Assembly: GCA_036874045.1 (NCBI GenBank)
Contig: CM072345.1
Span: 7,527,501 to 7,591,500 of the forward strand
Direction: 5' to 3'
From: Cymodocea nodosa
Lineage: Eukaryota; Streptophyta; Magnoliopsida; Alismatales; Cymodoceaceae
Length of the DNA: 64,000 nucleotides
Below, in pieces: positions 958-64,000 of the stretch; the stretch's first letter is position 1, and each line of letters begins with the position of its first letter. The notes beneath the pieces are model-generated. The model was not told the DNA's origin, made no database searches, and saw nothing but the letters and a program-made list of their open reading frames with translations. Both the position numbers and the translations under genes were made by a program.

Positions 958-1353
958 ATCTCCCACTTGGAGTTTGGCATAATGATTGAAAGAAAAATCA
1001 ATCTCTACACTTGGCTTACAGATTATTGTAACAACTGCTCAAATAAACATCAACTCTTCATCTCCTTTTTATTTTCAATTTTTCAAGAGACCAATTAAGG
1101 CCATATAGAGCCTTAATTTCTACAGATTCAGAACTTTGGTTAGCATATTTGCTGCATTTTCAGATCTTGCAATCTTTTGCAGATCTAACCTGTTCTGCTC
1201 TATCTCTTCCCTTATGAAATGAAATCTCATTCTCATATGCTTGGACCTTGAATGAAGCTTCGAATTTTCAGCTAAATAAATGGCACTTTGATTGTCTCAG
1301 AACAGAATGCTTCTTTTCTATTTGTGTCCTAATTTGGCTAGTACATTCTCTAG

Positions 1354-4980: not shown

Positions 4981-5015
4981 CTGTTAAACTGAAGAACCTT
5001 CGCTCTGATACTAGT

Positions 5016-5952: not shown

Positions 5953-6980
5953 ATTATTTCCTTAGAGAATTTAATGAAGTTTGTCAAATGATGAAAATGT
6001 CGAACATGAGTATTAATGTTATTAAACTTAGATATATTCCTTTTGCTTTAAAAGATACAACTAAAAGAAGGTTATATACTCTGTCATCTGATTCAATTTC
6101 TGCTTTGATTGAATTTTACTCTATTTTTCTGGAAAAATATTATCCAACACGTCACACGATTAAAAAGAAAAATGAAATATTAATGTGTAAGCAAAAACAG
6201 GGAGAATCATTTTGGAAATATTTTGAACGATTTAAAGATTTACTAACTCAATGTCCACATCATGCAATGAGTAAAACACAATTAATAGGTATAATTTATG
6301 AAGGCATAGAAGTTTCAACTAAATCTTTATTAGAATCTACTTGTCAAAATGGATTTTTAAAACTATGTAGTGAAGAAGCATGAGCATACTTAGAAAACTT
6401 TGCAAAAAGAACTAATTAGTGGGAAAATTCGGTTGAAGCTATTATAGATAAAACAATATTGTCAAGGGGAATGCATGAAATAGATTCAAGCACTATGCTT
6501 GAATTAAATTAACTGAGTTAACAAAGAAAATTGAGGAGTTATCATTAAATCAAAAACTAACAAAAAAGAATGTAAATATTAATGACTTAAATATTATTTA
6601 TGCTAGAAACCAGAAAAATAACTTTGGAAATTCTTATAACCCTAATTAGAGAAATCACCCGAACCTATCTTAGAGAAATAATAATTTCCAAGGAGGAGAA
6701 AATATAAATGACAAAAATATAAGTTATGAAGTATTAATTGAACAAGGATCTAAAATAGAGAAGTTAGAAAAGATAATTCAACAATTAAACAATTGTCTAA
6801 ACCATGTATTTGAAAATGCTACCATTTAGAATCAAAATATGAATAAAAATATACCCCCTAAACAGAAGGAATTAATAGAAGTTAAACCTATTAGAGGATT
6901 GCCAATGCAAGTAATGTCTAACCTTGTCAATAAAACTATTAATGAAATTGATACCTTTTTTAGGAGGGAAGCTGAATGAA
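5953..6980 (+). pseudogene. Gypsy gag-like region, copy A
   Basis: The translation at 5988-6383 shows a plant Gypsy (Athila/Tat type) capsid region, with motifs LRYIPFALKD, FYSIFLEKYYP and WKYFERFKDLLTQCPHH. The next 600 bp keep gag-like spacing (NHPN near 6655, then a coiled segment). It matches 58259-59280 of copy B almost base for base. The upstream part of this gag is absent here, because the Copia element lies across the junction. It is a fossil and the frame is broken several times. Confidence 0.75.
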
Positions 6981-7199: not shown

Positions 7200-8345
7200 A
7201 TGGAATTGATGAAATTACCATTGGTTGCACTAAGGGAAGTATTAAGTAACTTATCAACTAAAGATCTATACAGATTGTGTTGTGTGTCAAAAGAAATTAA
7301 AGAATGTGTCAAAGAAAAATATTTTCATGGACTACAAGCTACAAAGATCACTAATATTAGAGATGAATTTTTATAAAAGTCATTTAATCATAGTTCAATC
7401 AGCTATGAATATCTGAATATGGAAGAAACTACTGGAATTCCACCCAATACATTAGAAGAAATAAGTCATATTATGGGGATAGATAAATGATTGATTATTT
7501 ACAGAACCAAACTAATGCATGCTATTCTGTTACCCGATATTTTGATTAGAAATCCTATTATTAGAGAAGAATGAAATATAGGAAGGCCTAATAGATTTGA
7601 AGTAGCAACGAAAAATTGTGGGTCAGCTTTAACATTTTCTCATAAAAATTTGACTATTCTTGAAAAATTGTATTATTGGAGACCAATTGGAAATTAGGAT
7701 GAGGATCTATGTTTAAGTGTGTATAATTTTCTAAATAAATCTTAGACTGAAAATACTATGATATATCTAAAAGAGAAAGTATTAGTTAACAATATACATA
7801 TCATACTTGATGGATATATATATCTAGTCACGAATATATCAATTACGTTTAGATCTGATTTATACATAGTAAGCATAGACAGTTATGATGATGACTTTAT
7901 AAAAATATTGCCTATACCTAATGATATAGCTGAACTACCATCTCCAGAACATGATAAAATTCAATTAGGAATGTGGTATAATGAATATGATGATCCTATT
8001 TTATGTCTAACAAGATGGTGGGATGAATTGATGAAATTTCAAATATGGATTATGAAAGACCTGAATGAATGGAAGTGGGAAGAGAAATATATTAAAATAT
8101 ATGTAGAAATAGAAATAACTACATTATCTTGGAATAGAAGATGATCCCTTTCTACATTTCAATTCATTAATGGTAATACACTTATATTTAGTATTGATGA
8201 CATACTACAAGTTTACAAGTTAAAAAGGAAAGTAGACTACATTAAAAAGGAATTAATAGCAAGAAGAATTATGCCTAAAAGTTTTACTTGGACTGAACCT
8301 TTATTCTATTTGTCACTACTTTTCAATCATATTCTTAAATTGTGA
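7200..8345 (+). pseudogene. F-box-like ORF carried by the Gypsy element, copy A
   Basis: The N-terminal segment, starting at the ATG at 7200, reads as a canonical F-box: LPLVALREVLSNLS, then KDLYRLCCVSKEIKECV. The following ~330 residues resemble the variable C-terminal part of plant F-box proteins, with segments such as ILIRNP and a run of beta-rich blocks. That is my inference from pattern only. It follows the gag-like region by about 220 bp and is matched by 59497-60588 in the second copy. F-box proteins recruit substrates to SCF ubiquitin ligases through SKP1. What this one bound is unknown. It is a fossil with a handful of interruptions. A hairpin at 7086-7114 and a donor-like GTATGTAAG at 7131 lie just upstream. 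Confidence 0.7.
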
Positions 8346-9277: not shown

Positions 9278-9965
9278 ATGATTTGATCTAGACCATTAGA
9301 TTAGATCGAGAAGGTAAGATCTAATTTGGGTCATTAGATCAAATCATGATGCTAAGATATGATCTAGATTGTCAAATCAGATGAGAAGGTGAGATTTGAT
9401 TTAGATCATCAAATCAAATTAAGATGTTGAGATTTGATCTAGACTATCAAATCAGATTGAGAAAGTGAGATCTAATCTAGGTTATTGGATCATAACAAGA
9501 TGTTGAGAACTAATCTAAATTGTCAAATCATATCAGGAATGTGAGATTTGATCTAGGTTGTTAAATTAGATTAGGATGCTAAGATTTGATTTAGACCATT
9601 GAATGATATCAAGATGCTAAGATATGATCTAAACCATTGGATTATATCAGGAAAGTGAGATATAATCTAGGCCATTGGATTTGATTAGGATACTAAGATA
9701 TAATTTATATTATCAAATCAAATAGGAAAGGCAAGATTTGATCTAGATCATTGGATTAGATTAAGATGTTGAAATCTAATTTAAACCATTAGATCAAATC
9801 AAAAAGATAAGATTTGATCTAAGTCATCAAATCAGATCAAGATTTTAAGATTTGATCTAGATTGTTGAATCAGATTAGGAAGTTGAGATTTAATTTAAAC
9901 TATCAAATTAGATTGAGAAGATAAGATCCAATCAAGACTATAAAATCAAATTAAAGGCATGATTT
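9278..9965. repeat. 38-bp tandem array, each unit a potential hairpin
   Basis: About 18 units of 38 bp lie head to tail. Each starts AGATTTGATCTAG and carries ATCAAATC near its middle, so GATTTGAT and ATCAAATC form an 8-nt inverted pair inside almost every unit. Unit endings tend to alternate between GATGCTA/GATGTTG and GAAAGTG/GAAGGTG types, hinting at a 76-bp higher-order dimer. Unit divergence is high, so the array is old. No ORF crosses it. Confidence 0.85.
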
Positions 9966-35400: not shown

Positions 35401-38400
35401 GCATCTGAATATGAAAGGGAACAATTAAGTGAAGAAATTTCTAGCAAAAAAGTTCAATTGCAGAAGATACCACATCTGCAAGATGAAATATCAGTATTGA
35501 AAAATTCCATTGATGAGGCAAAATTTGAGAAGGCCAAACTGGAGCATTCGCTCAAATTAATATCTGATGAATGTGAAGAAGTGAAAGCTGAAAAAATTTC
35601 ATGTATGGAAAAATATTATACCTTGCAGAAGGCTTTATCTGATGGTGAAGATGCCAGGGTAGGTAAGCTGGCCTTGGAAGAAAAGCTTCTGCGACTGGAG
35701 TCTGATCTATCTGCAATGAACGCATTATATGCTCAGGATGCTGAGCTCAAAAATGAAATTAATCGTATCAAAAGAGTAAATAGCCAATACCAAAGGAAGA
35801 TAGTTTGCCATGAAGAAGAGAAGAATGAACTCATGAAGAAAGTGCAACTTCTCCAAAAAGAACTTGGAACTAAAGCAGAACATGAGAAAAATGACCATCA
35901 GGTACTTTCTATGCTTCCTATCTCCTAATTATTCATATTTCTCCATTCATCCTTTTCATTTTAGCATTAAAAAACTCTTATTTTGTAAGATATCATATAA
36001 TAAATTTAAATTCTTGCACAGAATGCAATGTGCATGGATGGATCTGAAAGCTACATAAATATAAATGAAAGGCATACGGTAACAGACCTTGATAACTCAC
36101 ATAGATGTAGTGGCTCAGAAAGCATGAAGCACACCAATATTGATTGGCAGGCGCAAGTTGTTTTTCTGCTTTGATACCTGTATAAATAGACAATTTATTT
36201 ACTTCATTGTTCACAGACGCAATCCAGTATTAGGTGAAAAATCTAGGATGTGTTGGCTTTTTCAATGTTATTTCTAGCCTTAAAATCAATTTTCAGAAAT
36301 TGATAGGTCCTGGAATTTCTTGCAAAGAAAGTACAAGGACAGATTTGGCTGGATTGTTTGGGTGTAAGATTGCACAATTGCCCTTTATGTATTTGGGACT
36401 TCCCTTGGGGCTTTCATGGTTCAAAGTGAAGGATTGGAGCATGATTATTGATGGATTTGAGAAAATGCTTTTAGGAATGGATGGCATTTGTCTTAGGGCG
36501 GTAGACTCACATTATTGGCTTGTGTGTTATTTAACCTTTCAGTTTACTTTCTTTTAATATTTAAAATTTCTCATCATGACCAGCCAGCTTACTGTTTTCT
36601 AGAAAGGGGGGGAAAAGTTCAGAAAAGTGGATATCGTTTGATGCCATGGTGAAAGTTTAAAAGATTAAGGCTGAAGGTGGCCTGAGGATTTAGAGATCTT
36701 TGACTTTCAATCTGCCATTAATTGCTTAATTGTTGTGGAGGCTTTGATGAAGGTGAAGTGATACTTTCCCTTGACAAATTATCATTACTGAGAATTGGTA
36801 TAGAGGAAGCTTGTCAGGGTGGCTAAGTGGAAGGGTGTTTTAGATGCCGGAGACATCAGGAACTGTGGTATGATACTAATAGTTGGAAATGGTTGACTTC
36901 ACTTTTGGATGGATGGTTGGATGGGACCCTCTCCATTGATGATGTTCTTTCCAAATTTGTTTAGAATTTCCTCCCACCCCATTGGTAAGTTTCCTGAGTA
37001 TTTTGAATGTTCTGTGCCAGGTCCCAATTGGAATGTCTGTTTTTGAACTGATATGAAGACTTCAAATGTGTGGACCATACTAATCTCATTTTTTTGTTGA
37101 ACTCTTCTGGTATCATTTTGTGGGAATCCAAAGTCAGATCAATTCAGATGAAAGTGGAAACAAGATGGATGCTTCTGATGTTCATCTGCTTTCAAAATTC
37201 TACACGAGGATGGGGTCCAACTATAATGGTATAAACTGCTTTCAAATGGATATATCCCAACAAAAATTCACGTATTTGGTACCACAAAATGATATTCTTT
37301 CTAAAGAAATAAAGTTGCCCTCCAACCACACTGATGGCAGCTGGATAGTAGATTTGTTTTTCACTTTTGCTCAGCTGAGTCCCTTATGGCAGCTGTGGTT
37401 GGGTTGGCTTGGTGCAAAGTAGAATTAATTTCAAATCAATGGAAACTTCTGGATTGAATAGGTGCTTTCAAAGTAAGAGGAGAGCAATATAGAATTTGAT
37501 TCCTTGTTCATCTGAATGGGCAATATGCTTTGCCAGAAACAAAGATATTTTTACTTAAGAGGAGGTGCTTTACTGGCCTAACTTGGTGAATTCAATGGGG
37601 TTTGAGTGGACAGGCACTTTAGGGAGTGATTCAGAGACAGATGTGGCAACATCAAACCAGAGCAGATGCTTCACTTTGATTTTTAGTTGTATGGTTTTGT
37701 TTGTTTCTTTGTTTGCTCTATGTTTAGATCGGTTTGTGGTCTCTTTCTGTGTATGCATTGATTTTCTATTTTTCTTTAGTTTCCCCTCTTTTTTTGGCCT
37801 ATCGTGCCGACAGGTTTGTCTGGCTTGTTTGTAATTTTTCGAGTATAAAATCATGTCTTGCTTCTTTCTCAAAAAAAATGAATGTAAGTATTGTCTATTT
37901 TTGAATTCAAGACCTTCTCTCGTAATAGTGAGAAGACCAATTGCATTATATGTTATTGAATCAAAGTTTTTTTAACATATTTTTATGAAGATTTACTCAA
38001 TGAAATAAGGTAGTGACATAGGATTAGGGAATCGATGGAATGACTAATGGAGCAAAGAGGAACAGGGGGGCATGTAAGCTTACTTATCATGTTCAGAAAA
38101 TTGGGTGCATGTGATTTTATGGAGTGGTGATTTACATTTTTTTGGAAAATAAATTGATCACAGTTTGATGTTGACTTGATTTCTAACATAACTTATTTTG
38201 GACCATATAGGGTTGTGTTCTGTCAAAGCAAAGCATAAACAGATGCAGTAATCAATCACTAGGACAAATGTGATTCTCGAAAAACTAAGTTAAAGAATAT
38301 AAGCTTAACTGAAAGTCGTAATAACAACATTATAAATTTAATATATGACAAATGTACTCAGATATTTTTTTTCTCTCTTTGCAGGGCAAAGGTAAATTTG

Positions 38401-40956: not shown

Positions 40957-40957
40957 A

Positions 40958-41337
40958 ACCAATGACAAATCATAAAGAGAGAAACATATATATTCATGAG
41001 CACATGACAAAAGTAATTCGTCAATTCATTATGATGGATGTTGTGGTGAGCGTCTTTGGATATAAGATCCTCAGATACACTAAGATATGAAATTGAATTT
41101 GTTAACCATAGGTATTATATGTTTTTTAAGAAAGAAACTTTGATGAACCAATGACAAATCATAAAGAGAGAAACATATATATTCATGAGCACATGACAAA
41201 AGTAATTCGTCAATTCATTATGATGGATGTTGTGGTGAGCGTCTTTGGATATAAGATCCTCAGATACACTAAGATATGAAATTGAATTTGTTAACCATAG
41301 GTATTATATGTTTTTTAAGAAAGAAACTTTGATGAAC
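40958..41337. repeat. Tandem duplication, two 189-bp units
   Basis: The segment from AATGACAAATCATAAAGAG at 40961 is repeated from 41150, with no difference seen by eye through TTTGATGAAC at about 41337. Identity between neighbouring units in non-coding DNA points to a very recent event or an assembly artefact. Confidence 0.9.
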
Positions 41338-46982: not shown

Positions 46983-49286
46983 TATTTAGAATTAAAAAGT
47001 GCATAATATTAACGGTTAAATGATAGTTAATTGCATAATATTTAGCTTATCATATAAGAATTAAGCCATTATGTTATAATTGCACTGTTATATGCTTTAA
47101 TGAAAGAATCTACATAATTTCAGGGAATTAGTGTTAATTAAGTACATTTCTGAACTATTGGTAAATTACAGGCTTTGAAATTCTTAAGTATTCAAATTTT
47201 CTGTTATTTCGGAGAGTTATATTGCATGTACCGGACAATTATGTTTTTAATGATAGAAGAATATTTTATTATTTCCTAGAGTACACATGTTGAAACCATA
47301 ATGCATGACTTAAGTGGATTTTCGTTAAGTTATCTACTAACTATCCGAAATGCATTTGGCATCAGATAGTTAAGGTTTGTAAGTATCCAAAATATTTGAA
47401 CTCGTTAAGTTAGATTTATGCACGTGTTGAATTTAAATGCTTTAGTATATCATGTGAGATGCACATGTTTAACTCGTTAAGTTAGCATAACTATACACAT
47501 TGAATTACTTGAATATACATTAAGGTAACACGTTTCGTTATATAGAAATAGGAAAAGTAAACTTTTGGATAGTTAACGTTTCATTTTTGTCGAAGAATTA
47601 TGTTAAAAACTCGTATAGTTAAGTTATTTGCATGTGTGTTTTTAATGTTTTAAGTTGTCATGTGTTTTCTATATGCGTTCAGTAATGAAAATTGAAGAGT
47701 TAGATAACTATTCGAGTTTTATATACATGGATAGATAACTGTTCGAGTTTTATACACATGGATGGATAACTGTTCGAGTTTTATAAAATGACTAACGAAC
47801 AAATAAGTTTTCTTGGTTAGTCATGTGTTTTGCAGGTGCAAAAAACTCGAAGAGTTACAGATAAGTGTTCAAGTTTTTACAAGACTTAAAAGATAAGTGT
47901 TCGACTAAAACGAAGACTAATATGCCACTGTAGCAATTACAGAAATAGAACATTCGAAGGAAAACTACGATTACACGTATCACGCAGGAATTCACTCGTG
48001 GAATGAAGAAGAAATCACCATCGTTGATATAAATGAAGTAAATCCAATCTATCATTTAAGTAGAAACAGTTACTACTGAAAGAAATATAAAAGAAGAGGA
48101 GAAAAACGAAGAAAGTGTGTGTGCAGAGGTGGAGGACCACACTAACTACAGGCAACGTTGGAAGTTCCCTGAAGCTCCACACCACCACCAAAATCACTAA
48201 TCATCGGAGGTTTGTGAGGATACTTTCCTAATGTCGGGTCGATTCCGAGCCAAACACGATGTCTGACAACCACTGTGAGGAGTGATCACGTCGCGGGAAG
48301 GGAAGCCATTTTCACCAAACATCGACTCATATCTTAAGAGATCGTAAAGCTTCTAGCCTTGGTTTCAGGTTAATGCTAGTATGCTAAAGATGAGATCATC
48401 TTGCAATTTTGGACTCGCAATTCTATAGGGAGAGGAGGCAGGATTGTAAGTAATTAAGTTTTCAATTGTGTAATTGCATCGCATGTAATGACGGAAGTTT
48501 TTACCATCGATAGAGATTTTTACATTTCACCTTTTATTCATCTTCAGGAACATATCAAAACAAAAATACCAAAAACAACAAATTATTTGTGTTTACATTT
48601 AGTATTTAAGTGTTGTATTGTTTGTTTTGTATCATGATTAATGTTATCATTGCCAGTATTGTGAATGTTTTATGTTTGTTTGATTTAGAAAATAGAAAAT
48701 AGTTTTACAGTTTACTAAAATTAATTCGTTTCAGATACTTAAAGATTTTATTAGTTATTGTTTGAAATATCTGAATGTTAGTGTTGCTTAATGATAAATC
48801 TAATGTTAACTAACATTGAAGAGCTTAATTGATGTTATTTACAATCTATGGAATCGCCCAATGGTTGGTCGAATTCCTCTGTAAATAGCAGTATTTAACT
48901 GGAAAGATAGGCTCGTGGAGTTAACTTAAGTCCACGAGGTTAGTCTATTGAGTTAGCCATAACTTCACGAACTTAGTCTGTTGTGTTAACTGTAACTCAA
49001 CGAAGTGGTTAACTGAACACACATAAACTTCAATATAAAATTGAAATAGTACACAATTCTTACTCAATCTCTATGTGATCGACCTATACTTGCACACAAA
49101 TACAATATACATTGTGCATTTGTAGTTAAAATACAAATTGAAATTAATATCTAATTTGTGTGAAAGATTATTTGTTTACTTCTAAAAGTAATCATTGATA
49201 TAGGCATAAAGATAAATTAAACAAGTTTAAAAACAGAAGTTAACAACCATAAACAAGTCTTCTTATTTAACCTTTCACATCCAAGA
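46983..49286 (+). repeat. 5' LTR of the Gypsy element
   Basis: The LTR is about 2.3 kb. It contains tandem words (ATAACTGTTCGAGTTTTAT, three times at 47695-47790), a TATA box at 48086-48092 (TATAAAA) matched at 63426-63432 in the 3' LTR, and hairpin motifs at 47338-47372 and 48912-48938. The exact 3' limit is uncertain by about 10 bp. Confidence 0.8.
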
Positions 49287-49295
49287 CAAGTTTTA

Positions 49296-49312
49296 TGGCA
49301 CCGTTGCTAGGG
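49296..49312 (+). other. Primer binding site, Asp-tRNA type
   Basis: TGGCACCGTTGCTAGGG is close to the TGGCGCCGTTGCCGGGG site used by Athila/Tat elements and sits just after the LTR. Confidence 0.8.
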
Positions 49313-49394
49313 ATTGAGAAGCTAAGCAACTGTGAGTGTTGTTTTGTTTTAATAGCAGGAGGAGTGTTGTGTGTTTTATTATATAATTGAGAAT

Positions 49395-52300
49395 ATGGCA
49401 TATGCTTATGCTCAAAGATTTCTGAAACCTGTAGTTAGCATATGTGAATTCTACAATTTGGAAGCTCACGACATCTCTAATTGTTTAAAACTGAGACGAT
49501 TGCAGATGGTTAGATCACATGAACAACAAATGAATTATATTTAATATAATAGAGTTGAGTATGAGAATCCTATAGTTTACCTAACTAATGGTCAATATGG
49601 AATGTATAATATGTTGAGAGACAGAAGTTTGGGATAGGTATGACAGACTGAAGCATAGCTTAGAGTAAAACATGGACGAACTGAAACAATATATGTGTTA
49701 GCAATAAGAAGTCAATCAATTAAACTACAAGGAAGCATATTTAGAACCTAAAATTGATATTATTTACGAAACTGAAAAAACTATAATGAAAATTGATCAA
49801 AAATTGAATGCAATGAGATTAGATGATCTAGAAAGAAAATTAAAAGCATTGGACGAATATACAATGAAATTACAAGTTATGCAACAAGAAAACACAAATG
49901 AAAACTTTAATGTTACAGATTTGCATAATTTGCAAGACATACAAAAAAAAGAAAATATCAATGCAATAGAATTTAAAGAATGCAGTTTAAAACTAAAAAT
50001 AGTTGAAGATCATAAGCACGAAAATGAAATACAAAAACATCATAAAAGTAATGAAAATCTGAAAGATGTATGTATAACATTAAGATCTGGAACTAATATA
50101 CCACCAAGAATTCAACAAGAAAATGACATGAAGGTGGATTAGAACAAAAATCAAATTGATAATGAAAATATAATATTTGAAAATTTAGAAGTCAATGAAG
50201 AAAAATCTGAATCTGAAAATGAGACTAAAAATGATCAAACAAATGAAATGAAAGATAAGAATCTTTTAAATTACAATCATTAGCACCCTATCCTGAAAGA
50301 TTACAACAAACATTTCTTGAAAAATAAGGAAAAATTAGAGAAATTTTTAAAAAAGTACAAGTTAACATTCCTTTGTTAGACTTATTGCAGAAAATGCCAC
50401 CTTGTGCTAAATTTCTTAAGGATTGGTGTATTAAGAAAAGAGAGCGAAAAGTTTTAAGGAATGTCTTCTTAGCTGAGCAAAGTAGTTTCCTATTTCTGCC
50501 ACAAATTCCTAAAAAGTTATCTGATTCTGGAATCCCTGTTATATCATGCACAATAGGAAATACCATTCTAGAAAGAACTTTAATAGGCCTAGGTGCAGGT
50601 ATAAATGTTATGTTGAGTGATATATTTGCATCCTTAGGATTAAAAGGCTTAATCCCTACTAGGATTGTTATTCAATTAGCTGATAGAAGTATAAGATATC
50701 CTAGAGGAAAAATAGAGGATGTCCTAATTAAAATCAAAAACTTCATATATCCTATTGATATTGTAATTTTGGATTCCCAACAAATTAAGCATCAAAATCA
50801 AAACACATCTTTAATTTTGGAAAGACCGTTCTTAGCAACATCAAGGGCTGTTATAAGTTGTAAAACTAGAGTAATGAAGTTAGCATATGGTAATGAGGAT
50901 ACTCAATTAAAGAATTTCAAATCAGAAAAGTTTGAGGAGTTAGAAATGTCCTTACATACTATAGACTTTTTAGAGGATGAAGGAGATATGTTAGATGATG
51001 TGATTCAAGAAGAACTAAATAAGCAACTAAATTTTGAAAATTTAGGAGAAAGTGAAAGCATAAATATAGAAGGAGATCAAGAAGAAATTAATATAGAAAA
51101 TGAAAATGTTTAATTAGGAGCTCTAGCTTCTGATGGGCAACATTTAGATTTAAAACATTTGCCTCCTGAATTAACCTATATATTTCTGGAAGAAAAGCAA
51201 ACATACCCAATCATTATTGCTTCAAATTTAGAAGAGAATCAAATTGCTGGATTAAAAGATGTAGTAAAAACTTATAAAGAAGAAATAGGATGGACTATGA
51301 CTGATATAAAAGGGTTAAGTACAACTTTATGCTATCATCACATATATTTAGAAGAGAATGCTAAACCAGTTAGAATTCCTGAGAGGAGATTAAATCCAAA
51401 CCTTAAAGAAGTAGTTAGGAAAGAAATAGTGAAATGGTTAGATAATGACATAATTTATCCTATTTTTGATACCTCATGGGTTAGTCCAATCCATGTAGTT
51501 CCCAAGAAATCAGGATTAACAATTATTAGAAATGAAAGTCAAGACTTGATACCTATTAGAATTCAATCAAGCTGGAGAGTGTGTATAGACTATAGAAAGC
51601 TGAATGTTGTGACTAAGAAAGATCATTTTCCCTTACCTTTTATAGATCAAATGCTAGAGAAATTAGCAAGGTAAGAATATTTTTGTTTCCTAGACGGGTA
51701 TTTAAGATATAACCAAGTTCCAATAGCATTAGAGGATCAAGAGAAAACAACTTTCACCTGTCCTAATGGAACTTATGCTTTTAAGAGAATACCATTCGGA
51801 TTATGCAATGCACTAGTCATCTTTTAAAGGTGTATGTAGGGCATATTCACTAAAATGACTGAAGATTTTTTAGAAATATTTATGGAATTTCATATGAAGT
51901 GTGTTTAAATAATTTAGACCAAGTATTAAAATGCTGTGTGGAAAAAAGTCTGGTTCTAAATTGGGAAAAATGTCACTTCATGGTTAAACAAAGAATAGTC
52001 TTGGGATATGTTGTTTCAAAGAAGGGGTTGGAAGTAGATAAAGCTAAAATAGAAGTAATTTCTAATCTACTAGAACCTAAATTAGTAAAAGATATTAGAT
52101 CATTTTTAGGACATGTTGGATTTTATAGAAGATTTATTAAAGATTTTAGCAAAATAGCTAGACCTTTAACTAATCTCTTAAAAGATGTCTCATTTAACTT
52201 TGATAAAAATTGCAAAGAAGCATTTTTCAAGCTTAAAACTAGTTTAATTTCAACTCCTATAATACAAGCACCTGATTGGAGCTATCCATTTGAATTAATG

Positions 52301-53950
52301 TGCGATGCATCTGATTTTGTTGTAGGAGCAGTACTAGGACAGAAGATAGAAAGATCTCCTAGAGTGATTCATTATGTAAGCAAAACTTTAAATGATGCTC
52401 AAGTTAATTATACAACTACTAAAAAAGAATTGTTTGCCTTAGAAAAGTTTAGATCATATCTAATTGGAGCTAAAGTGATAGTATACATGGATCATTTAGC
52501 TTTAAAATACCTAATAGCAAAGAAAGAAACTAAGCCTAGATTGATCCGATGGATATTATTATTACAAGAATTTGATCTAGAAATTAAAGATAAAAAAGGT
52601 TGTGAGAATGTAGTAGCAAATCATTTATCAAGATTACAAATAGAAAAATCAAATATGGAAATTAAAGATAATTTTCCTGATGAATAATTAATGACCATCA
52701 ACACAATGCCTTGGTATGTAGACATAGTTAATTACTTGATTATTGGTTTAACACCTAAGGATTAGAATAGATAGGATAAGAAATTGTTCTTTTCAAGAGT
52801 AAAATATTACTATTGGGAAGACCCATACTTATTTAAAAAATATCCTGATCTGGTTTTAAGGAGATGTGTTCTAGAAACTGAATATTAGAGCATATTGTCT
52901 TTCTGCCATGACCAAGCATGTGGAGGGCATTTTGGTTTAGGGAAAACGACTACTAAAATTCTACAATGTGGTTTTTATTGGCCAACACTATTCAAAGATG
53001 CTCATAAATACTGCTTAAGTTGTTTAAGATGTCAAAAAATAGGAAGAATATCAAAGAGGAATATGATGCCTCTTAATCCTATTATTGAAGTTGAAATCTT
53101 TGATGTGTGAGGAATAGATTTTATGGGTCTATTTCCTATGTCTAATCAATTTAATTATATATTGTTGGGAGTGGATTATGTATCTAAATGGATAGAAGCT
53201 ATTCCTACAAAAACTAATGACAACAAAGTGGTAATACATTTTATAAGAACTAATATAATTGCCAGATTTGGAATACCTAAAGCTATTATAAATGATAGAG
53301 GAACTCATTTCTGTAATAGAAGTTTTGAAGCTTTAATGAAGAAATATGGAGTAAACCAAAAAATTGCAACATCATATCATCTGCAAACAAGTGGACAAGT
53401 AGAAAGTGCAAACAAACAAATTAAGTTAATCTTAGAAAAAGTAGTAAATCCTACTAGAAAAGATTAGGCTAATAGATTAATAAATGCACTTTGGGCTCAT
53501 AGAATTTCTTATAAGACAAGCTTAGGTATGTCACCTTTTAGGCTAGTATATGGGAAAAGTTGTTATTTACCAGTTGAAATAGAACATAAAGTTTATTGGG
53601 CATTAAAAACTCTAAACACTAATTTAAATCAAACTGCTGAAAACAGGAAAATGTAATTGATTGAATTAAAAGAATTTAGGAACAAAGCTTATTCGAAAAC
53701 TGTAAGAGAAAAAGAGAAAATGAAGTTCTGGCATGACAAGAAAATTATTCCAAAAACCTTTGAAATAGGACAAGAAGTATATCTTTACATGACTAGACTC
53801 CATAATCATCTAGGAAAATTAAGATCTAGATGGGCAAGACCTTACATAATTTGAAATATTTATTCCTATGGGGCCATTGAAATTGAAAATCCTAAAAATT
53901 AGAATATATTTAAAGTAAATGGACAAAGACTTAGACTTATTTTGAAAATA
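49395..53950 (+). pseudogene. Gypsy zinc knuckle and pol remnant (PR-RT-RH-INT)
   Basis: The start near 49395 gives a short lead, a knuckle-like segment (CEFYNLEAHDISNC) and a coiled spacer ending CITLRSGTNIPP. The protease region follows at 50373-51113 (LPQIPKKLSDSGIPV; RSIRYPRGKIEDVLIK). RT starts at 51159-51674 (RRLNPNLKEVVRKEI, WVSPIHVVPKK, WRVCIDYRKLN), with RT end and RNase H at 51899-52687 ([33 protein letters not shown]). The integrase zinc finger is at 52895-53110 and the core at 53123-53467 (YILLGVDYVSKWIEAIPT, YHLQTSGQVESANKQIK). The family-typical end YGAIEIENPK lies near 53870. RT before integrase identifies Ty3/Gypsy. Roughly a dozen interruptions make it non-functional. A full gag does not precede it. 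Confidence 0.88.
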
Positions 53951-54049
53951 CTAAAAAGTTCCTTTGGAATTATAGAGGAAGTAAGAGTAGAGGACTACTT
54001 GAGCTTTACTTAGTAAGAAATTTTCTAAGTTTTTTTTTTTTAAAAAAAA

Positions 54050-54350
54050 AAACTGTATTTAAACATAGTCACGATTCAGCCAAAAGAAATTATTGATTTT
54101 ACCGAAACATATATTAAAAGGAAAAAAATCATTACGGTTCAACCGATAAGATTCATCGGTATGATCAAAACATAAAAACATAAAAAATCTGTATATTATA
54201 TTAAGTAAAAATGTCAATTTTACCGAAGCATAGTATCGATTCAACCGGAGAAAAAAAAGAAGAAGAGAAAGAGAGTAATTAATTTCGGTTCAACCGAGGA
54301 ATATAACGGTTTGACCGAAAATTCTTTGATCTTGACCGAAGTAAATATTA
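54050..54350. repeat. ACCGAA/TTCGGT palindromes after pol
   Basis: About eight copies of TTACCGAA, CGGTTCAACCG, CGGTTTGACCG and similar words lie in an A-rich stretch, next to a T-run/A-run palindrome at 54030-54051. The style matches 16290-16960. Confidence 0.6.
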
Positions 54351-54393
54351 TTATTATAAATATTTTTATTAGATATAACTTTACGGGAAGTAC

Positions 54394-54545
54394 GTTGAGT
54401 TACGCTTAACTCAACAAACTTACTCCGTTGAGTCTAAGATAAGTTAACGAGCTTACCCCATTAAGTAAACTATAACTCAAAGGAGTACTGTAGTTAAGTC
54501 CACGGACTTAGTCCGTGGAGTTAACCATAACTCCACAGAGAGGTA
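54394..54545. repeat. Hairpin cluster between pol and the extra ORF
   Basis: A perfect hairpin with arms GTTGAGTTA and TAACTCAAC and a 4-nt loop lies at 54394-54415. A second at 54494-54524 has 14-nt arms, one mismatch and a TTA loop. A donor-like AGGTAAGTG follows at about 54541. Confidence 0.75.
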
Positions 54546-54715
54546 AGTGAGTGAGTTAGAGTTTGCACAGGAAAATGACTCGATCACCCGCCTAAACTTA
54601 GGGCTTATTTAACTAAAACTTAGGATTTGGGGGCATTATCCGTAGAATCATTTAGAATTTAGAACAATAGAGATCAGAGCGATTCTATTCTGTTTTGTAA
54701 CTCCACGATGACAAA

Positions 54716-56960
54716 GATGACATTCGAGTTCTGGGAGGAAGTAGTTGACATGTCAGAATTTCTTAAAGAATCGAAAGAATGACACATGAGGTAGAAGATC
54801 AGAAATACAACGAGGGAAAAAGAGCTATAAAAGGTACAATCTGACCTTTTCTATTGGAGGAAAGTGTTAGTGGATTTAGGCATAAACATACCTCAGATTA
54901 TGGAAACGAGAATCAAAGTAGCAACGGAAGTTGCTGTAAATCGAGAAAGACGAATCAGGCCAAATAATGAAGTTGCCCTAGAATTGATCCAACGTAAGTC
55001 CCAACTCTGGTTCAAAAGATGCATAGGTAGACGGCTCATTGGGCAATCTAGGAGTAACAAAGGGAAGTAAATGAAGAATAGGCCGCTGAAAAATAACAAG
55101 AGGAACTGACTACTGAAAGACCTATCCTTGAGGAACAACAGCTAGGACATTCAGTTTAGCCAACAGAACCACTATCACGAATAGCATTTGTTTGGCCAAA
55201 AACTGAAGAAGAAGATAAAGAGTTTGCTAGCTTGGTCAAAACAGCAAAAGACCAAGGAGATAAGGAAGAAATGACTATAGCCAAGGCACATATTTTGTAT
55301 GATACTATAAAGAAAAGGCAGGCAGAAGAAAAGTTGAAGGGCCAATACAAAATTAAAATAGAGCAACATCAGGAAGCAACTAGATTAAGTGCTATAAAAG
55401 AAACTGAAGTTAGTCCTTCGATACCAATAATTATAGAGACAGTGAAACAGGAAAGCTAGTACCTGTGGCTCGAAGGCCTGTAGAGCCTATTGTTGTAGAT
55501 TTAATCTCAGATGAGGAAGAGGAAGATCAGGCACAATTAATTAGAAAAAGGAAAGGAAAAGAGATAGTGCTTGAACATCAAGAAGAGATTAAATCTTAAA
55601 TGCAAATATCAATAGGGCATGTAGAGTCAATTTTTGTAAACCTATTATCCGAATCTAAGGAGGAGTAGGAGCAGCAGTAATAAGAGCAAAGAGAAAAAGA
55701 AAAATAGGCTGAAACTAATCTACAGCCTGTACAAACAAAAGAAACAGATATTAGGGCAAAAGTTGATTTGTCCATGACTCCATCCCAATCTGCTATAAAA
55801 TCAGAAAGAATAGTGACAATGCAGATTGGTAGTCAGGAGGAAGAAGAAAAAGAAGAAACTGAACAAGAAGTTGAACAAATACTCATTGAACAAGAAAGGA
55901 ATGACTCGACAGATTCCACTGAAGAGGGAGAAACTCTTCAGCAAATTTTGGAAAGAATTCAAGACAGAGTGGAGAGTTCTGTCAGCTCACCACTATAGAC
56001 AGAAGTAGAAGCAAAAATGTAGGAATCTCCAGAGCATTCCTAGCCAATTCAAGTTCAGCACATGGAAGAGGAAATTCAAGAACAAACTCCTCTAGAGCAA
56101 CAAATTCAAATTTCTAACCCAACTGAAACAACAGTTTTGAATGAAGTGTACTTTTGGAGTCAGGAAGCATATAATAAATATCAAGAGATTAGGGGTTATG
56201 ATATTATTTACAGTAGACTAGTAAATTGGGATGATATGTAGGAAATTTAAATAATTAAATTTCAAGATCTACTGCAATTTATTTCTCAACAAAAAGGGCA
56301 TGTAGTGTATGAGAATCTAGTGTCTTGCTTCTATACAAATTTAAGAGAAAGAGAAAGTGGATTAATTTTCAATGTGGAGCAAGTTGATGTACAGATAACA
56401 CTAGAGCTTCTCCACAACATTTTAGGACTAAAGAATGAAGGAATAGAAATTCTGGAAAGCACAACTGCAATCGAGTGGATAGAATAGATAATAAAGGATT
56501 GTTTAGCTATCAATCTTGGTATGCCATTATTAAATAGACTGAAGCACTTAAATGGTAAAGCATACATGATAGCTAATATTTTGATTAAAATGTCTACTAA
56601 TGACAAGACCATGACATTGAATTAAGTCAGTTTGTCAAATGGGCCACATGCAGTTGTGAACAGAATTCAGATTAATTGGTCTACAGTATTTATCTCCAAA
56701 CTGAGAGCAGCAAAGAAGAAATTATTTTATGAAGATCTGATGCCACTGTTGATGGTGGATAGTATTGATTTCACAAAATAGACGTCTAAAAGGATTAGAT
56801 CTAGAGCCATTTCAGTGAAAGAATACAGAAATTATGTTAGCTGTTGAGATTATTGAACTTTCTTGAAGTATTACAGGAGCTATAGAGAGGATAAATCAAT
56901 TAGAGCAACAACTAGAAAAACTCCAAAAGGAAGTAGATGAACTTAGGAAGAAAGATTAAA
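54716..56960 (+). pseudogene. Extra ORF region of the Gypsy element (plant-transposon-protein-like)
   Basis: The region encodes a Glu/Gln-rich stretch (55200-56100), then a segment with ENLVSCFYTNLRERE and LELLHNILGLKNEGIE. That pattern recalls the 'putative plant transposon protein' domain found as an additional ORF in some Athila/Tat/Ogre elements. It ends in a coiled segment near 56950. The function is unknown. In Ogre-type elements a comparable ORF lies upstream of gag, and here too it directly precedes the gag-like block. It is broken in several places. Confidence 0.5.
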
Positions 56961-57236
56961 TTGTATTGTTCGTCTATTTATATTTATATTTGTATGAAAA
57001 TATCTGATTGAATGTAAATGTAAATTATTCATATAAATGAATGAATATTTTTCAGATGTTTTTACATTCATGTTTGAGAATGAATGATGTAATGGATGAA
57101 CTATCTTGAATATTATATAACTATTTAAACAATGTGCAAGTTTGTTTAAAAGATTTACAAATTTTCTGAATGACATGATTAAATGCATGATGTTTAGTTA
57201 ATGCTAAAAATATCTACATGCTGAAAAGTAAAATGT

Positions 57237-57910
57237 AAATTCTACACAACAGGAAATGAACTGCAAGTTAAATACACATATAATGTTCAGATTTAAATGA
57301 GTTTAAATTGGAACACTACATTAATGACATGTATTTAACTTTATTTAAGTTGACAAAATGCAGGAAAGAAAAATATATAGAAGTTACTACTAGGATTAAG
57401 TTTTAGAAAATTTGCTAAGTGTTAACTCAATGGAGTAAGTCCGTTGAGTTAACCTTAACTCCACGAGGTCAATAATAAAATATAATGTCACTCCATTGAG
57501 TTAACTGTAACTCAACGAAGTTAGTCCGTGGAGTTAGCAATAGTAACTGAAGCTAGTCCGTTGAGTTAACTGTAACTTAAAGAGGTTAGTTCGTGGATTA
57601 AGCTAAACGATTATTCTTTTAGCCACGAACGAAACTTCGTGAGTTTAGCGGTTACTAAAATTTGAAATTAAAAGTGGAACACGTATCCATAAAAATAGGA
57701 ACCATACTACACGTTACAAGACATGTTCTTGCAACGAGATCATTTGCTTTATGGACGTGCATTATAAATATAAAACAGAATGTTATTTACGAGTTACCAG
57801 TACTTTTGAAACAAAAGAAATTTCATTGGGGAACTGGAAGGAGAAGTAGTTGATTCAACTTCATTCTTCAACAACTATTTACTGAAAATAAAGCTTCAAA
57901 CTGGTATGTA
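57237..57910 (+). other. Leader-like block before gag, shared with copy A (1-661)
   Basis: This non-coding block aligns by eye with 1-661 over its whole length. It contains the palindrome cluster 57420-57605 and ends in a donor-like CTGGTATGTAA near 57902. It is not LTR sequence of this element. Confidence 0.65.
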
Positions 57911-58029
57911 ATTAATATTCTGCTATTTCACTTTATGTTAAGAGTTTATGAGCACATGGATTTGTTCTCCTAGCACTAAATGATTATAATGATTATTCAA
58001 CATAGAGCCGTACTAAAATATTTTCTAAA

Positions 58030-59280
58030 TTGGACTTTAACGAAATCCTTAAGGGTGTAGCTAACCTTTCTTTAAAAGAGAACAAAGATATGGCTACTCC
58101 AATAGAAAAACCATTAGGGGAAATTCTGTATCCTGAATTAGTTGATAAACCTTCATATATTCGATTGCCAAACTTTGAGGGAGATAGGTTTGAACTGAAA
58201 TCTAATTATATTAGTCAATTGCCACATTTTCATGGATTAGAAAGAGAGGATGCCTATTATTTCCTTAGAGAATTTAACGAAGTTTGTCAAATGATGAAAA
58301 TGCCGAACATGAGTATTGATGCTATTAAACTTAGATATATCCCTTTTGCTTTAAAAGACACAACTAAGAGATGGTTATATACTTTATCGCCTGATTCAAT
58401 TTCTACATTAACTAAATTTTACTCTATTTTTCTAGAAAAATATTATCCAATACATCAAACGATTAAAAAGAAAAAGGAAATATTAATGTGTAGCCAAAAA
58501 CGAGAATCATTCTAGAAATATTTTGAAAGATTTAAAGATTTACTGACTCAATGTCTACATCATGCAATGAGTAAAACACAATTAATAGGTATAATTTATG
58601 AAGGCATAGATGTTTCAACGAAATATTTATTAGAATCTACTTGTTAGAATAGATTTTTAAAGCTGTGTAGTGAAGAAGCATGAGCATACTTAGAAAACTT
58701 TGCAAAAAGAACTACATAGTGGGAAAACTCGGCTGAAGCTATTACAGATAAAAGAATATTGCCAAAGGGAATGCATGAAATAGATTCAAGCACTATACTT
58801 GAAGTTAAATTAACTGAATTAACAAAGAAAATAGAAGAGTTATCATTAAATCAAAAACTAGCAGAAAAGAATGCAAACGTTAATGACTTAGATATTATTT
58901 ATGCTAGAAACTAGAAAGATAACTTAGGAAATTCTTATAAACCTAATTAGAGAAATCACCCGAATCTATCTTGGAGAAACAATAATTTCTAGGGAGTAGA
59001 AAATATAAATGACAAAAATATAAGTTATGAAGCATTAATTGAACAAGGATCTAGAATAGAGAAATTAGAAAAGATAATTCAACAATTAAATAATCGTTTA
59101 GATCTTGTATTTGGAAATGTTGCAATTCAAAATCAAAATATGAATAGAAATATACCCCTTAGACAAAAGGAATCAATGGAAGTTAGACCAATTAGATGAT
59201 TGCCAATGCAAGCAATACTTAACCCTATCAACAGAATTGTTAATGAAATTGATACCTCCTATGGGAGAGAAGTTGAATGA
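58030..59280 (+). pseudogene. Gypsy gag-like region, copy B
   Basis: A start at 58030 (MDFNEILKGVANLSLKENK) leads to a capsid core of the Athila/Tat type: YYFLREFNEVC, LRYIPFALKDTTKRWLY, TKFYSIFLEKYYP. Later parts show KLTELTKKIEEL and the gag-type segment NHPNLSWRNNN near 58965. The family's zinc knuckle is not seen here; a knuckle-like segment stands instead at 49440, before pol. It lies downstream of pol, which is abnormal for Gypsy elements. It matches copy A (5953-6980). It is broken several times. Confidence 0.78.
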
Positions 59281-59381
59281 AGCAGTATAATTGAAGTAAC
59301 TATATATAATACAATAAGTATATAAAAAAAAAGAAAAAAAAAAAGTTTAATTGTAGTTAGTAGTATCGTAGAGTTATTAGT

Positions 59382-59410
59382 TAACTCAACGAACTTAGTC
59401 CGTTGAGTTA
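59382..59410. other. Perfect hairpin between gag and F-box regions, copy B
   Basis: The arms TAACTCAACG and CGTTGAGTTA pair fully around a 9-nt loop. A donor-like GGGTAAGTAAG follows at 59427 and an acceptor-like T-rich stretch ending ATACAG at about 59486, just before the F-box start at 59497. Confidence 0.75.
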
Positions 59411-59496
59411 TGACCTAACTCCATGAGGGTAAGTAAGTAGCTATGTTAATTTTAGCTCTGTTAAATTTTTGTTTATGTTATACAGAATCATAATAG

Positions 59497-60588
59497 ATGG
59501 AATTGATGAAATTACCATTGGATGCACTGAGGGAAGTATTGAGTAACCTATCAGCTAAAGATCTGTGCAGATTGTGTTTTGTATCAAAGCAAATCAAAGA
59601 CTATGTGAGAGAAAAATATTTTCATGGACTACAAGCTACAAAAATGACTAAGGATAGAGATAGATTTTTATGGAATTCATTTAATCATAGTTCAATTAAC
59701 TATGAATATCTAAATATAGAAGAAACTGCTGAAATTCCACCCAATACATTAGAAGAAATAGATCATATTATGGGGATAGATGAAAGATTAATTATTTACA
59801 GAATCAAACCAAGGTATGCAATTCTATTACCCGATATTTTGATTAGAAATCCTGTAACTAGAGAAGAATGGAATATAGGAAGGTCTAATAGATTTGAAGT
59901 ACCAACTGAAAACTATGGGTCAGCTTTAACATTTTCTGATAAAAATTCGACCATTCCTGAAAAATTGTATTACTAGATACCAACTAGAAATTGGGATGAA
60001 GAGTTATACTTAAGTGTGTATAATTTTTTGAATAGATCTTGGACTGAAAATACTATGATATATCTAAGACATAAAGCATTAATTAACAACATACATGTCA
60101 TACTTGATAGATATATATATCTAGTCACAGATATATCAGTTGCATTTAGATCCAATCTATACATAGTAAGCATAAATAGTTATGATGATGACTTTATAGA
60201 AATATTGCCTATACCGAGTGATATAGCTAAACCACCGTCTTCAGAATATGATAAAATTCAATTAAGAATGTGGTATAATGAATATGATGATCCTACTTTA
60301 TGTCTGATCAGATAGTGGGATGAATTGATGAAATTTCAAATATGGATTATAAAAGACCTAAATGAATGGAAGTGGGAAGAGGAATATATTCAAATAGGTG
60401 TAGAAATAGAAATAGCTACATTATCTTGGAATAGAAGAGGATCCCTTTTTGCATTTCAATTCATTAATGGAAATACACTTATATTTAGTATTGATAACAT
60501 ACTGCAAGTTTACAAGTTAAAAAGGAAAGCAGACTACATTAAAATAGAATTAATAACAAGAAGAATTATGCCTAAAAAGTTTGCTTAG
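59497..60588 (+). pseudogene. F-box-like ORF carried by the Gypsy element, copy B
   Basis: The first 50 residues form a clear F-box (MELMKLPLDALREVLSNLS, KDLCRLCFVSKQIKDYV). The long C-terminal part has patterns such as LLPDILIRNPVTREEW and YLVTDISVAFRSNLYIVSI, as in F-box-associated repeats of plant F-box proteins. No Kelch or LRR motifs are obvious. It is the last coding block before the 3' tail of the element. Copy A carries the same ORF with about 90 percent similar residues. Only a few interruptions are present, fewer than in pol. F-box proteins of plant viruses such as polerovirus P0 suppress silencing; whether this one did is speculation. Confidence 0.75.
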
Positions 60589-60599
60589 ACTGACACGTT

Positions 60600-62413
60600 T
60601 ATTCCATTTGTTACTACTTTTCAATCATGTTCTTAAACTATGATTCTGTACGTTTAATGTTGTGTGTATTCTAATTTTTATAGAAAAAAAAGAGAAAATT
60701 TTTAGTTTTATTTTTATTTTATAAGAAAAAAAAAATTTCAATCCAATTTGTTGGTATCTATTCTGGGAAACCAATTGGCTTGCTTGTGAGCCACCAAAGG
60801 CATAGGAGCCTCGGTTCCACACAAGACATTGATTTAACAAGTTATGTTTTATTTTTTTATTATATATTCTGCTTTTATTTGTAAATGAAAAGTTTTTAGA
60901 ATCAAAAGTTGAAGGATATTGAAGGAGATACAAAAGAATAAGGTATGTAATTGATTACTTATCTTGAATTTAGATTTAAACTCAGTTCATGGAGTTATTC
61001 ATTAACTCAACGAATTAAGTTTGTTGAGTTAAGTGCTAAGTCAACGAAACAATATTCCTGCCTGCTAAATTTACTGTAGTTACTGTAAAATCTTTTACAT
61101 TGAGGACAATGCAAAATGTAGTTATGGGAGGAGGTAATTTGATTAGTAGCCAAGTAATTTTGTTAATTAAAGGAATTAGAATGATACTGCAAAAGTTCTG
61201 TGGAAATTGAAAATTTTTATGTATTTGTTGTAACTATTCGATGATTGAGACTGTAAAATTTTTAAGAACTGTAACTGCTTAAATGTTATATTTCTAATCT
61301 TATATATAAGATGGTACAAACTTTTACTATTCATACAAATCTAGATATAGTATCTTATGTTTTTGCTGAATTTTATGAGTTTAATAGTTTCACAATTTTA
61401 AAAAGAAATCAGAATGCTTAACTAAAACTCAGTAAATTATCTGAAATCCTAAACGAGCTGAAATGTTGATTTTTAGATTAAATGAGATGCATATGATCAA
61501 GGATACATTTAATTTGATTGATTAAACTTGTAGAATGATTTATGTGTAAATCTTATTAAACTACAGAGAATGTATGAGCTTATTGATATGGATTCATATT
61601 TTCAGTAAATAATAGAAGTATGACTATACGAGATTTTTGTTTTATTGCATCTGTATTAATGAAATACGTATATATACTGCGTTAAAAAGAAAAAAAAGAG
61701 AAAAACTTTGAGAGTTTATTGACTTGTTTGATCACGAGCCTTTTGTACTTGAGCAAATAGGTATGTAAGGATTGTTGACCTGAAAAAGGACTCTTTAAAT
61801 TTGGCAATCTAAAATCCTGATCAGATCTAGGATTGTTAACTGAAAGCTCGATACATGGGTACACTAGAAAGCTCTTGTATGATTCAAGCTTTTCAAATTA
61901 ACTTTTAAAGTACAAATATGCATATATTGTTTTGGAAAGATAAAAGTGTTTTGTGAAATAGAGATATCTTTTGAATCGAGTATATTTTATGTTATCTAAG
62001 ATTGCTAAAGTATAAATCTAGAATAAACTTTTGAAGTTGTTTATTTGATATACAATTCTTTATTCTATTTGTTTTAATCATATTGAATTGGATTTTGTTT
62101 TGATTCGTATGAAGTTAAAATTTATTTTGGAAATCATATTGGAAAATTCAAGACAATAGATGTTTGAAAAGAAGAGAAAATGATAATATAATTACCACCT
62201 ATATGATGCTAATATATTTTGTATGTAATTTACATATGTTTTAAATATATTTCCAGGTTGAAGAGGAGAAAACAAATTACTAAAAAATACCAAATATCTA
62301 TATAGTAATCTAATTTATTATTCTGAAGAAGAACAAAAGGAACAATTAATTTTAGCACTTTAGAAAGACCAACTAGTTATATCTTAGTTTGCTAAAGGAC
62401 TAGCAGAATTTAA
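60600..62413 (+). other. Non-coding 3' tail of the Gypsy element
   Basis: It holds a hairpin at 61003-61031 (arms TAACTCAAC and GTTGAGTTA) and the word GAGGACAATGCAAAATG near 61102, which in Athila/Tat elements marks the end of the coding part. A purine-rich ATGGGAGGAGG lies at 61124-61134. The rest is AT-rich DNA with no credible ORF. Confidence 0.6.
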
Positions 62414-62425
62414 GTATGGGGGAAG
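62414..62425 (+). other. Polypurine tract
   Basis: GTATGGGGGAAG lies directly before the TG of the 3' LTR. Confidence 0.8.
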
Positions 62426-64000
62426 TGTTTAGAATGAAAAAGTGCATAATATTAATGGTTAAATGATGGTTAATTGCATAATATTTTGATTATCATATAA
62501 GAATTAAGCCATTATGTTATAATTGCACTGTTATATGCTTTAATGAAAGAATCTACATAATTTCAGGGAATTAACGTTAATTAAGTATATTTTTGAACTG
62601 TCGGTAAATTACAGGCTTTGAAATTCTTATGTATTCGAATTTTCTATTATTTTGGAGAGTTATATTGCATGTACTAGACAGTTATGTTTTTAACGATAGA
62701 AGAATATTTTATTATTTCCTAGAGTACATGTTTAGAATGAAAAAGTGCATATTATTAACGATTAAATGATGGTTAATTGCATAATATTTAGCTTATCATA
62801 TGAGAATTAAGCCATTATGTTATAATTGCACTGTTATATGCTTTAATTGAAGAATCTGCTTAATTTTGGGGAATTAATGTTAATTTAGTACATTTATGAA
62901 CTGTCGGTAAGTTGCAGGCTATAAAATTCTTAAGTATTCGAATTTTCTGATATTTCGAATAGTTATGTTTAACAGACCGAATATGTATCGGATAGTTATG
63001 TTTAAATTGCCGAACAATTATGTTTAGAGAGAATATTTTATTTCCAGATGTACACGTGTTGAGATCTGGTAGATTTATTTAAGTTATAACTCGTTAAGTT
63101 AGCATAACTGTACGCGTTGAGTTGCTATATTGAACATTAAGGCAACACGTTAGGTTAGCGTTATAAACTTAAGTTGTTATTTTTGCACATGTTTTATAGT
63201 TAAATCAACGAAGAAAGTTCGTTGAGTTATCTGTAACTCCACGGACTATATATTTTCTAAAATGCCACTGTAGCAGTTGCAAGAACAGACAGTTGGAAGG
63301 AAAAACCACGTTTGCATGTATCACGTAGGAATTCAATCGCGTAGGGAGAAAGAAATCATCGCCGTTGATCTCAATGAAGGAAATCCAACCGACCATTCAA
63401 GTAGAAGCAGTTACTACGGAAGAAATATAAAAGAAAAGAAGAAAAAAAGAAGAAGTGTGTGTGATCGATGGACGGCCAGTGTATACAAAGGAGGAGCACT
63501 GAGCTTTCTATAGACAGTATCGGTGATTCTCTAAAGTATCACACCAACCATCGTATCACCACCATAATCACCAATCATCGGAGGTTTGTAAGGATACTTG
63601 CTTGATGTCGGGTCGATTCCGAGCCAAACACAGTGCCTGACAACCACTGTGAGGAGTGATCGCATCGCGGGAAGGGAAGACATTTTCACCAAGCGCCGAC
63701 TCATATTTCAGGAGATCGTAAAGCTTTTAGCCTTGGCTTTGGGTTGATGCCTGTATGCTGAAGAGGAGATTATCTTGCAATTCTGGACTCGCGATTCTAT
63801 AAGGAGAGGAGACAGAATTGTAAGTGGTTTAATTTTTAGTGGTGTAATCGCGTTGCAAGTAGTGTCGGAAGTATTTACTGTCAAGTGAGATTACTTTACA
63901 TTTCACCTTTCGCCCATTTCATCAAAAACAAAAATACCAAAAACAATTTATCTTTGTTTGTATGTTGTATTTTAGTGTTGTATTGTTTGTGTTGTAACGT
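62426..64000 (+). repeat. 3' LTR of the Gypsy element (continues beyond the window)
   Basis: It aligns with the 5' LTR, but its first 303 bp occur twice: TGTTTAGAATG starts at 62426 and again at 62729. From 63262 the match to 47930 onward is close (TATA box at 63426; block 63580-63700 equals 48206-48330). At 64000 it has reached the equivalent of about 48640, so some 650 bp remain outside. Confidence 0.8.

Follow-up and report, generated by a model that had tools for sequence, protein, structure and literature searches.

An F-box gene carried by a Ty3/gypsy retrotransposon family of Cymodocea nodosa between a gag-like gene and the 3' long terminal repeat

The F-box gene and its place in the element

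The window analysed here is a stretch of 64,000 nucleotides from Cymodocea nodosa (assembly GCA_036874045.1, contig CM072345.1, positions 7,527,501 to 7,591,500 of the forward strand), and coordinates refer to it unless another stretch, numbered with L, is named. Towards its right end lies a Ty3/gypsy long terminal repeat (LTR) retrotransposon, one of two family members in the window (copy B; the other is copy A), which carries an F-box gene on the plus strand (59497..60636). The open reading frame (ORF) of the family has 379 or 380 codons with the stop, depending on the copy, and its F-box domain spans residues 4-42 (59506..59622, plus strand). The open frame of 159 codons at 59497-59973 matched PF00646 with 42.4 bits (E 5e-11, cut-off 20.5) and PF12937 (F-box-like) with 25.8 bits (cut-off 24.3), and PF00646 was also matched over the curated cut-off in copies L029 and L044. 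A sequence-only reading of the window had described an N-terminal F-box followed by a long C-terminal region, and both are present. That reading had ended the ORF at 60588; the ORF itself is real, this position is the third of three premature in-frame stops that break the frame in copy B, and the family frame ends at 60636.

The C-terminal region includes an FBA_1-like stretch (PF07734; approximately 60097..60453, plus strand), placed by correspondence with the natural copy L044. FBA_1 scored 22.8 bits in L044 by hmmscan (cut-off 21.1) and 24.5 bits in a profile search of the genome, which also placed L045 over the cut-off; two further stretches were sub-threshold (17.5 and 14.8 bits), and the Pfam scan reported no FBA_1 for window positions 59977-60312. 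A sequence search of the PDB with one natural open copy as the query returned nothing (best E 1.5).

Directly upstream lies a gag-like gene (58006..59280, plus strand; capsid core 58165-58716), which is broken in copy B. The capsid family PF03732 was matched with E 3.9e-4 in copy B (below the cut-off), 4.5e-13 in copy A and 1.9e-16 in L021. The F-box ORF is the next gene, about 220 bases past the end of gag, and is followed by a polypurine tract (PPT)-like sequence GGGGGAAG (62418..62425, plus strand) that directly abuts the start of the 3' LTR, TGTTTAGAATG (62426..62728, plus strand), identified by sequence and LTR match. The gene therefore sits inside the LTR bounds between gag and the PPT, as had been proposed from the window alone.

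Copy A has the same order that had been noted for it, with the capsid part of gag at about 5953..6413 (plus strand; Pfam, tblastn and self-comparison) and the F-box ORF at 7200..8340 (plus strand), the latter with six premature stops and one frame-breaking indel. Copies A and B are 87% alike across 2.5 kb spanning gag and F-box, and pol-matching sequence lies upstream of copy A, in L041. In copy A a nested element, with direct repeats of its own (90% alike) and minus-strand ORFs, occupies about 663-5954 and divides the copy.

Carriage of the F-box gene by the element

The genome searched comprised 374.6 Mb in 28 contigs. First-look candidate counts, which are loose, were 5135 for the F-box protein query, 6136 for the capsid query, 4219 for the PF00646 family and 11321 for the integrase query. 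Of the F-box protein candidates 150 were scored and all matched, with 82-100% identity. Pairing of gag places with PF00646 places (65 of 150 and 68 of 150 used, PF00646 being the general family model and not the protein of the element) gave six cases with the F-box 1308-1359 bases downstream of gag, compared to 0.002 expected by chance; the remaining three pairs within 20 kb were at -15818, 19357 and 19674 bases. LTR sequence was found downstream in all ten 20-kb stretches chosen by their F-box, with rearrangements in L033 and L035; five of the ten have pol sequence upstream, the remainder being cut or nested. One structurally complete copy outside the window (L039) has both LTRs, a perfect 5-base target site duplication (TSD) of TTATG on each side and the F-box inside, with its own F-box frame broken and an extra 1-kb stretch in its 3' LTR.

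Starting from capsid, the F-box ORF was located within 2.5 kb of 12 of the 13 capsid hits in the window, L041, L042 and ten long stretches, nine of the 13 sitting in F-box-chosen copies or in the source copy. Among the four capsid hits otherwise obtained, copy A included, three have the F-box ORF. The one gag-bearing exception (L029 3137-5163, minus strand) has gag running directly into the LTR with the F-box region missing, and this arrangement looks like a deletion; the absence of the ORF from other family members, which would have spoken against the sequence-only reading, was thus not borne out in this set of mostly F-box-chosen copies. Conversely, gag was missing upstream in five of 17 F-box stretches. 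That the F-box gene is carried by the element is virtually certain. The earlier proposal that transposition carried the ORF is supported by the two window copies, 33 aligned copies, the TSD-bounded copy and two older copies; the fixed spacing to gag and the LTR downstream in every stretch chosen also point to carriage by the element. A captured fragment would be expected in few copies and without constraint; here the copies are many and the frame is constrained.

Age of the association and host F-box genes

Two older copies, L047 and L048, retain the F-box with protein identities of 66% and 62%, respectively. In L047 the match extends to the end of gag and to the spacer in front of the F-box, in L048 to the spacer, and their ratios of nonsynonymous to synonymous substitution rates (dN/dS) to the reference ORF are 0.55 and 0.29. 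Distances between copies in gag and in the F-box ORF are correlated (r 0.69, 14 copies, leaving out short alignments and any copy whose stretch held two places), and none of 5000 permutations gave a correlation as high. Because the older copies retain the F-box and the two sets of distances are correlated, the gene has long been part of the element. Taken with the fixed spacing to gag and the selection described below, this makes it an accessory gene of long standing rather than debris.

In the PF00646 search of the same genome 150 of 4219 candidates were scored and three places were examined, two being the older element copies and one a host F-box gene (L046). The host gene combines an F-box with an At3g26010-like propeller and kelch; it is of a different type and did not match the element ORF significantly (E 0.88). 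The FBA_1 search gave 31 candidates and two matches, both element copies, and the FBA_3 search gave none, though its controls gave no signal either. A donor gene was not found among the three PF00646 places examined and the two FBA_1 matches.

Selection on the F-box frame

Nonsynonymous and synonymous changes (N/S) were compared over 33 F-box copies aligned to one natural intact ORF, with L018 and L002 left out because they duplicate the places of L021 and L039, and with identical rows merged. Five of the 33 copies are without a premature stop, and four of these five are also without a frame-breaking indel. The pooled N/S was 0.41 in frame; the two shifted sense frames gave 0.62 and 0.75, and the antisense frames 0.56-0.73. 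The sense frames of a 3' non-coding control (30 copies) gave 0.59-0.77, and a neutral simulation with the mutation spectrum of this control gave 0.84 (2.5-97.5%: 0.71-0.98). Elsewhere in the element N/S was 0.40 for gag (23 copies), 0.45 for reverse transcriptase (RT; 7 copies) and 0.36 for integrase (INT; 6 copies). Along the F-box ORF it rose from 0.18 in codons 1-45 to 0.42 in codons 46-180 and 0.51 in the rest. Variants shared by at least four copies had an N/S of 0.98, compared to 2.87 for singletons (Fisher p 1.2e-5). We are highly confident that the protein sequence of the F-box gene is kept by purifying selection, and that this selection is strongest in the F-box.

Gag behind pol

The capsid piece was located behind pol in all three element copies searched by tblastn, with nothing significant 5' of pol in these copies (other hits E 6 to 8). 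Among same-strand integrase and capsid pairs within 20 kb (85 of 129 places used for integrase and 97 of 150 for gag), eight of nine have the capsid downstream at a spacing of 4980-5420 bases, and the ninth is at -6582. Since this spacing is constant in eight of the nine pairs, the displaced order looks like a trait of the family. The element departs from the usual order of gag before pol, an order that does not define the superfamily. We found no report of gag behind pol in the literature searched. The displaced gag poses the question of how capsid reaches the right ratio without being translated ahead of pol.

Structure and classification of the element

Copy B is about 17 kb in size, its own pol included, and all its features lie on the plus strand. 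Self-comparison placed the 5' LTR (2.3 kb) at 46983..49288, and seven bases separate it from a stretch resembling a primer binding site, TGGCACCGTTGCTAGGGA (49296..49313, identified by sequence). An ORF ahead of the protease (49708..50142) has no Pfam match, here or in L039 and L035, and the capsid domain was not found there. The protease region (50328..51113) has weak, sub-threshold aspartic protease matches (PF02160 E 0.001; PF09668 E 0.001 in L039). It is followed by RT and RNase H (RH; 51114..52687), which are split into ORFs (PF17917 E 2.2e-29; RVT_1 matched in L039 and L029), and by the integrase core (53111..53467; rve E 1.8e-12). The zone separating pol and gag (54000..57200) corresponds to a weak Transposase_32-like ORF (PF20167) in L035 (E 0.00038) and L039 (E 0.0092), both below the cut-off; the L029 ORF scanned did not match PF20167.

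At about 62729 the 3' LTR breaks off where an LTR of another copy begins, and its remainder lies beyond the window at L042 620-2677. The inserted LTR (62729 to past 64000, continuing in L042) is of the same kind as the 3' LTR that holds it. The flanks of the element are ATAGC on the left and ACAGC to the right of the distal LTR, agreeing at four of five bases. With identities of 93.7% and 90.2% for the LTR pieces of the window, the insertion is likely to be old.

The pol order of RT-RH followed by INT is that of Ty3/gypsy elements. The RT and gag motifs are ones that we take to be Athila-like. In L029 a single RNase H domain was found, with about 300 bases from there to the integrase zinc domain, and the integrase ORF of this one copy scanned (305 amino acids) contains rve and H2C2, with no chromodomain found. 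In the scheme of PMC6317226 (articles are cited here by PubMed Central identifier) an additional RNase H marks Tat and a chromodomain marks chromoviruses; a single RNase H and no detected chromodomain thus point to an Athila-like Ty3/gypsy element rather than to either of these. The Athila ORF-1 domain PF03078 was unmatched among the ORFs scanned; it is present in 16% of Athila elements and so is not required (PMC6317226).

Motifs and other features of the window

An inverted-repeat motif precedes the F-box ORF (59383..59410, plus strand), and motifs related to it lie ahead of gag, within the LTR and around 61.0 kb. It was found upstream of the F-box ORF in 16 of the 33 stretches, two being duplicates, and alifold gave no conserved fold for it. 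More widely, a motif like AACTCAACGA with inverted, hairpin-like copies occurs at 48913-49003, 57423-57567, 59366-59426, 60987-61047 and 63091-63244; motifs of this kind have 50 matches in the window compared to 10 expected, with sites before gag, before and after the F-box ORF and in the LTR. In the 64-kb window neither Rfam (at the gathering threshold) nor a tRNA scan gave any hit.

Elsewhere the window contains an LEA_2 gene, a plus-strand open frame of 1148 codons (32482-35928) with a weak, sub-threshold CENP-F_leu_zip match (E 0.004), a tandem array with a 38-base period (9278-9954; copies 61-78% alike to a reference copy) and a tandem duplication of 189 bases (40957-41334; 100% alike).

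Proposed role and alternative explanations

We propose that an Athila-like Ty3/gypsy element captured a plant F-box gene encoding an F-box and an FBA-type substrate domain, and that, over the course of many transpositions, the element retained this gene in an accessory role, placed between gag and the 3' LTR. The product would bind SKP1 through its F-box and join an SKP1-cullin-F-box (SCF) ubiquitin ligase, while the C-terminal domain would recognise a target, leading to the removal of a host factor by which the element is held in check; a component of RNA silencing or another restriction factor would be the first candidate. As a whole, an element-borne F-box protein acting as an SCF receptor that serves the element is the best explanation, to which we give a probability of roughly 55%. 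The parts differ in strength. The product is probably an SCF substrate receptor. That its target is a host restriction factor, suggested by analogy with polerovirus P0, is a proposal to which we give slightly less than even odds. More tentative is a fuller picture of a rebuilt lineage, with pol first and gag plus the host-derived F-box as a 3' module with its own expression, in which a counter-defence receptor against a silencing or restriction factor would have aided spread to thousands of candidate places; we regard this as possible and rather unlikely.

Several observations weigh against the proposed role or weaken the case for constraint. The FBA_1 match is marginal, most copies are broken, and AlphaFold models of two natural open pieces from the window were too poor to be used (mean pLDDT, the predicted local distance difference test, 40.5 and 34.1). 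The copy that lost its F-box indicates that the F-box is not needed in cis. As for selection, the first 20 copies were picked for likeness to the protein and most of the ten long ones for the length of their frames, a choice that biases N downwards; six copies picked otherwise gave an N/S of 0.50, still below the simulated range, although less strongly so. The +1 frame of gag (0.47) is close to its true frame, the 3' control shows the same fall of N/S in shared variants, weakly (p 0.054), and copy pairs are not independent. The sequence-only reading had suggested computing dN/dS between element copies: the pair of copies A and B gave 0.52, with 0.75 and 0.77 in the other frames, and in the L041 pair the +1 frame (0.40) was as low as the true frame (0.39).

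The alternative that survives best is self-regulation, in which the F-box protein would target the Gag or Pol of the element itself and so tune capsid turnover or copy number. The gene immediately follows the capsid gene at a distance of about 220 bases; this position would suit such a role, as would the joint evolution of gag and F-box seen in their fixed spacing and correlated distances. On general reasoning, however, mere restraint would be selected only weakly inside an element, and we consider self-regulation unlikely, at about one chance in five by our estimate.

Less probable still is an F-box fold without a role in ubiquitination, in which SKP1 or another partner would be bound for localisation, RNA handling or assembly. 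The constraint being highest in the F-box (0.18) and lower C-terminally (0.51), together with the marginal FBA match, would fit this explanation; the C-terminal part nevertheless remains under the range that the neutral simulation gave for the ORF as a whole, and F-box domains are chiefly known for binding SKP1.

The gene might also be a passenger, a captured fragment of a host gene without function. LTR elements of plants have been described as capturing genes (PMC7264820), and the broken state of most copies would be expected of a passenger. The in-frame constraint, akin to that of pol and gag, and the shared-variant test disfavour this explanation, as does persistence in copies only 62-66% alike, and we regard it as very unlikely. 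Chance juxtaposition of host F-box genes and element debris, for which the existence of a host F-box gene (L046) could be cited, is ruled out for the copies examined by the fixed gag spacing, the downstream LTRs, the TSD-bounded copy and the thousands of first-look candidates, and by the lack of a significant match between L046 and the element ORF.

Comparison with known systems

Athila (OTA superclade, non-Tat) shares with the present element the protease-RT-RH-INT order, the lack of a second RNase H and of a detected chromodomain, the large size and the extra sequence between pol and the 3' LTR; the element differs in its F-box ORF and in having capsid behind pol with none found ahead of it. 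Elements of the env-like class likewise have a sense-strand accessory ORF in the zone between pol and the 3' LTR, and an identifiable F-box distinguishes the present element from them. The sense ORFs between pol and LTR of Retand have no known domain in the account of PMC11963269, and additional ORFs in plant LTR elements are described as highly divergent, few having a common known domain, with their role open (PMC6317226; PMC7264820).

A parallel in kind is offered by Phalaenopsis Gypsy elements with an ORF for an AlkB-type N6-methyladenosine (m6A) demethylase (PMC9289625): like the present family they are large and have fixed a domain of host type, AlkB-type there and an F-box here. The screen of 121 angiosperm genomes in that article gave 15 uncommon domains, all in Gypsy elements, and its main text contains no occurrence of "F-box". 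We found no report of an F-box-bearing LTR element in the literature searched, which excludes most subscription papers. What appears to be new here is the F-box as an accessory domain together with an uncommon gene order; an LTR element with an accessory ORF was known already. With host F-box/FBA genes (PF07734) the element ORF shares the layout of an F-box followed by an FBA_1-like region, the difference being that the FBA_1 matches of this genome (two from 31 candidates) are both element copies.

The polerovirus protein P0 and the nanovirus protein CLINK are not known to be related in origin. Both are F-box proteins used by plant viruses (PMC3588083), and they share with the present gene the encoding of an F-box protein by a plant viral or mobile element; here, in contrast, a canonical F-box with an FBA-like domain is found in a retrotransposon. 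The conserved F-box implies a directly testable biochemical activity and raises the question of which host or element protein it would deliver for proteasomal degradation. Should that protein prove to be a silencing factor, endogenous retroelements would have converged with plant RNA viruses on one weapon.
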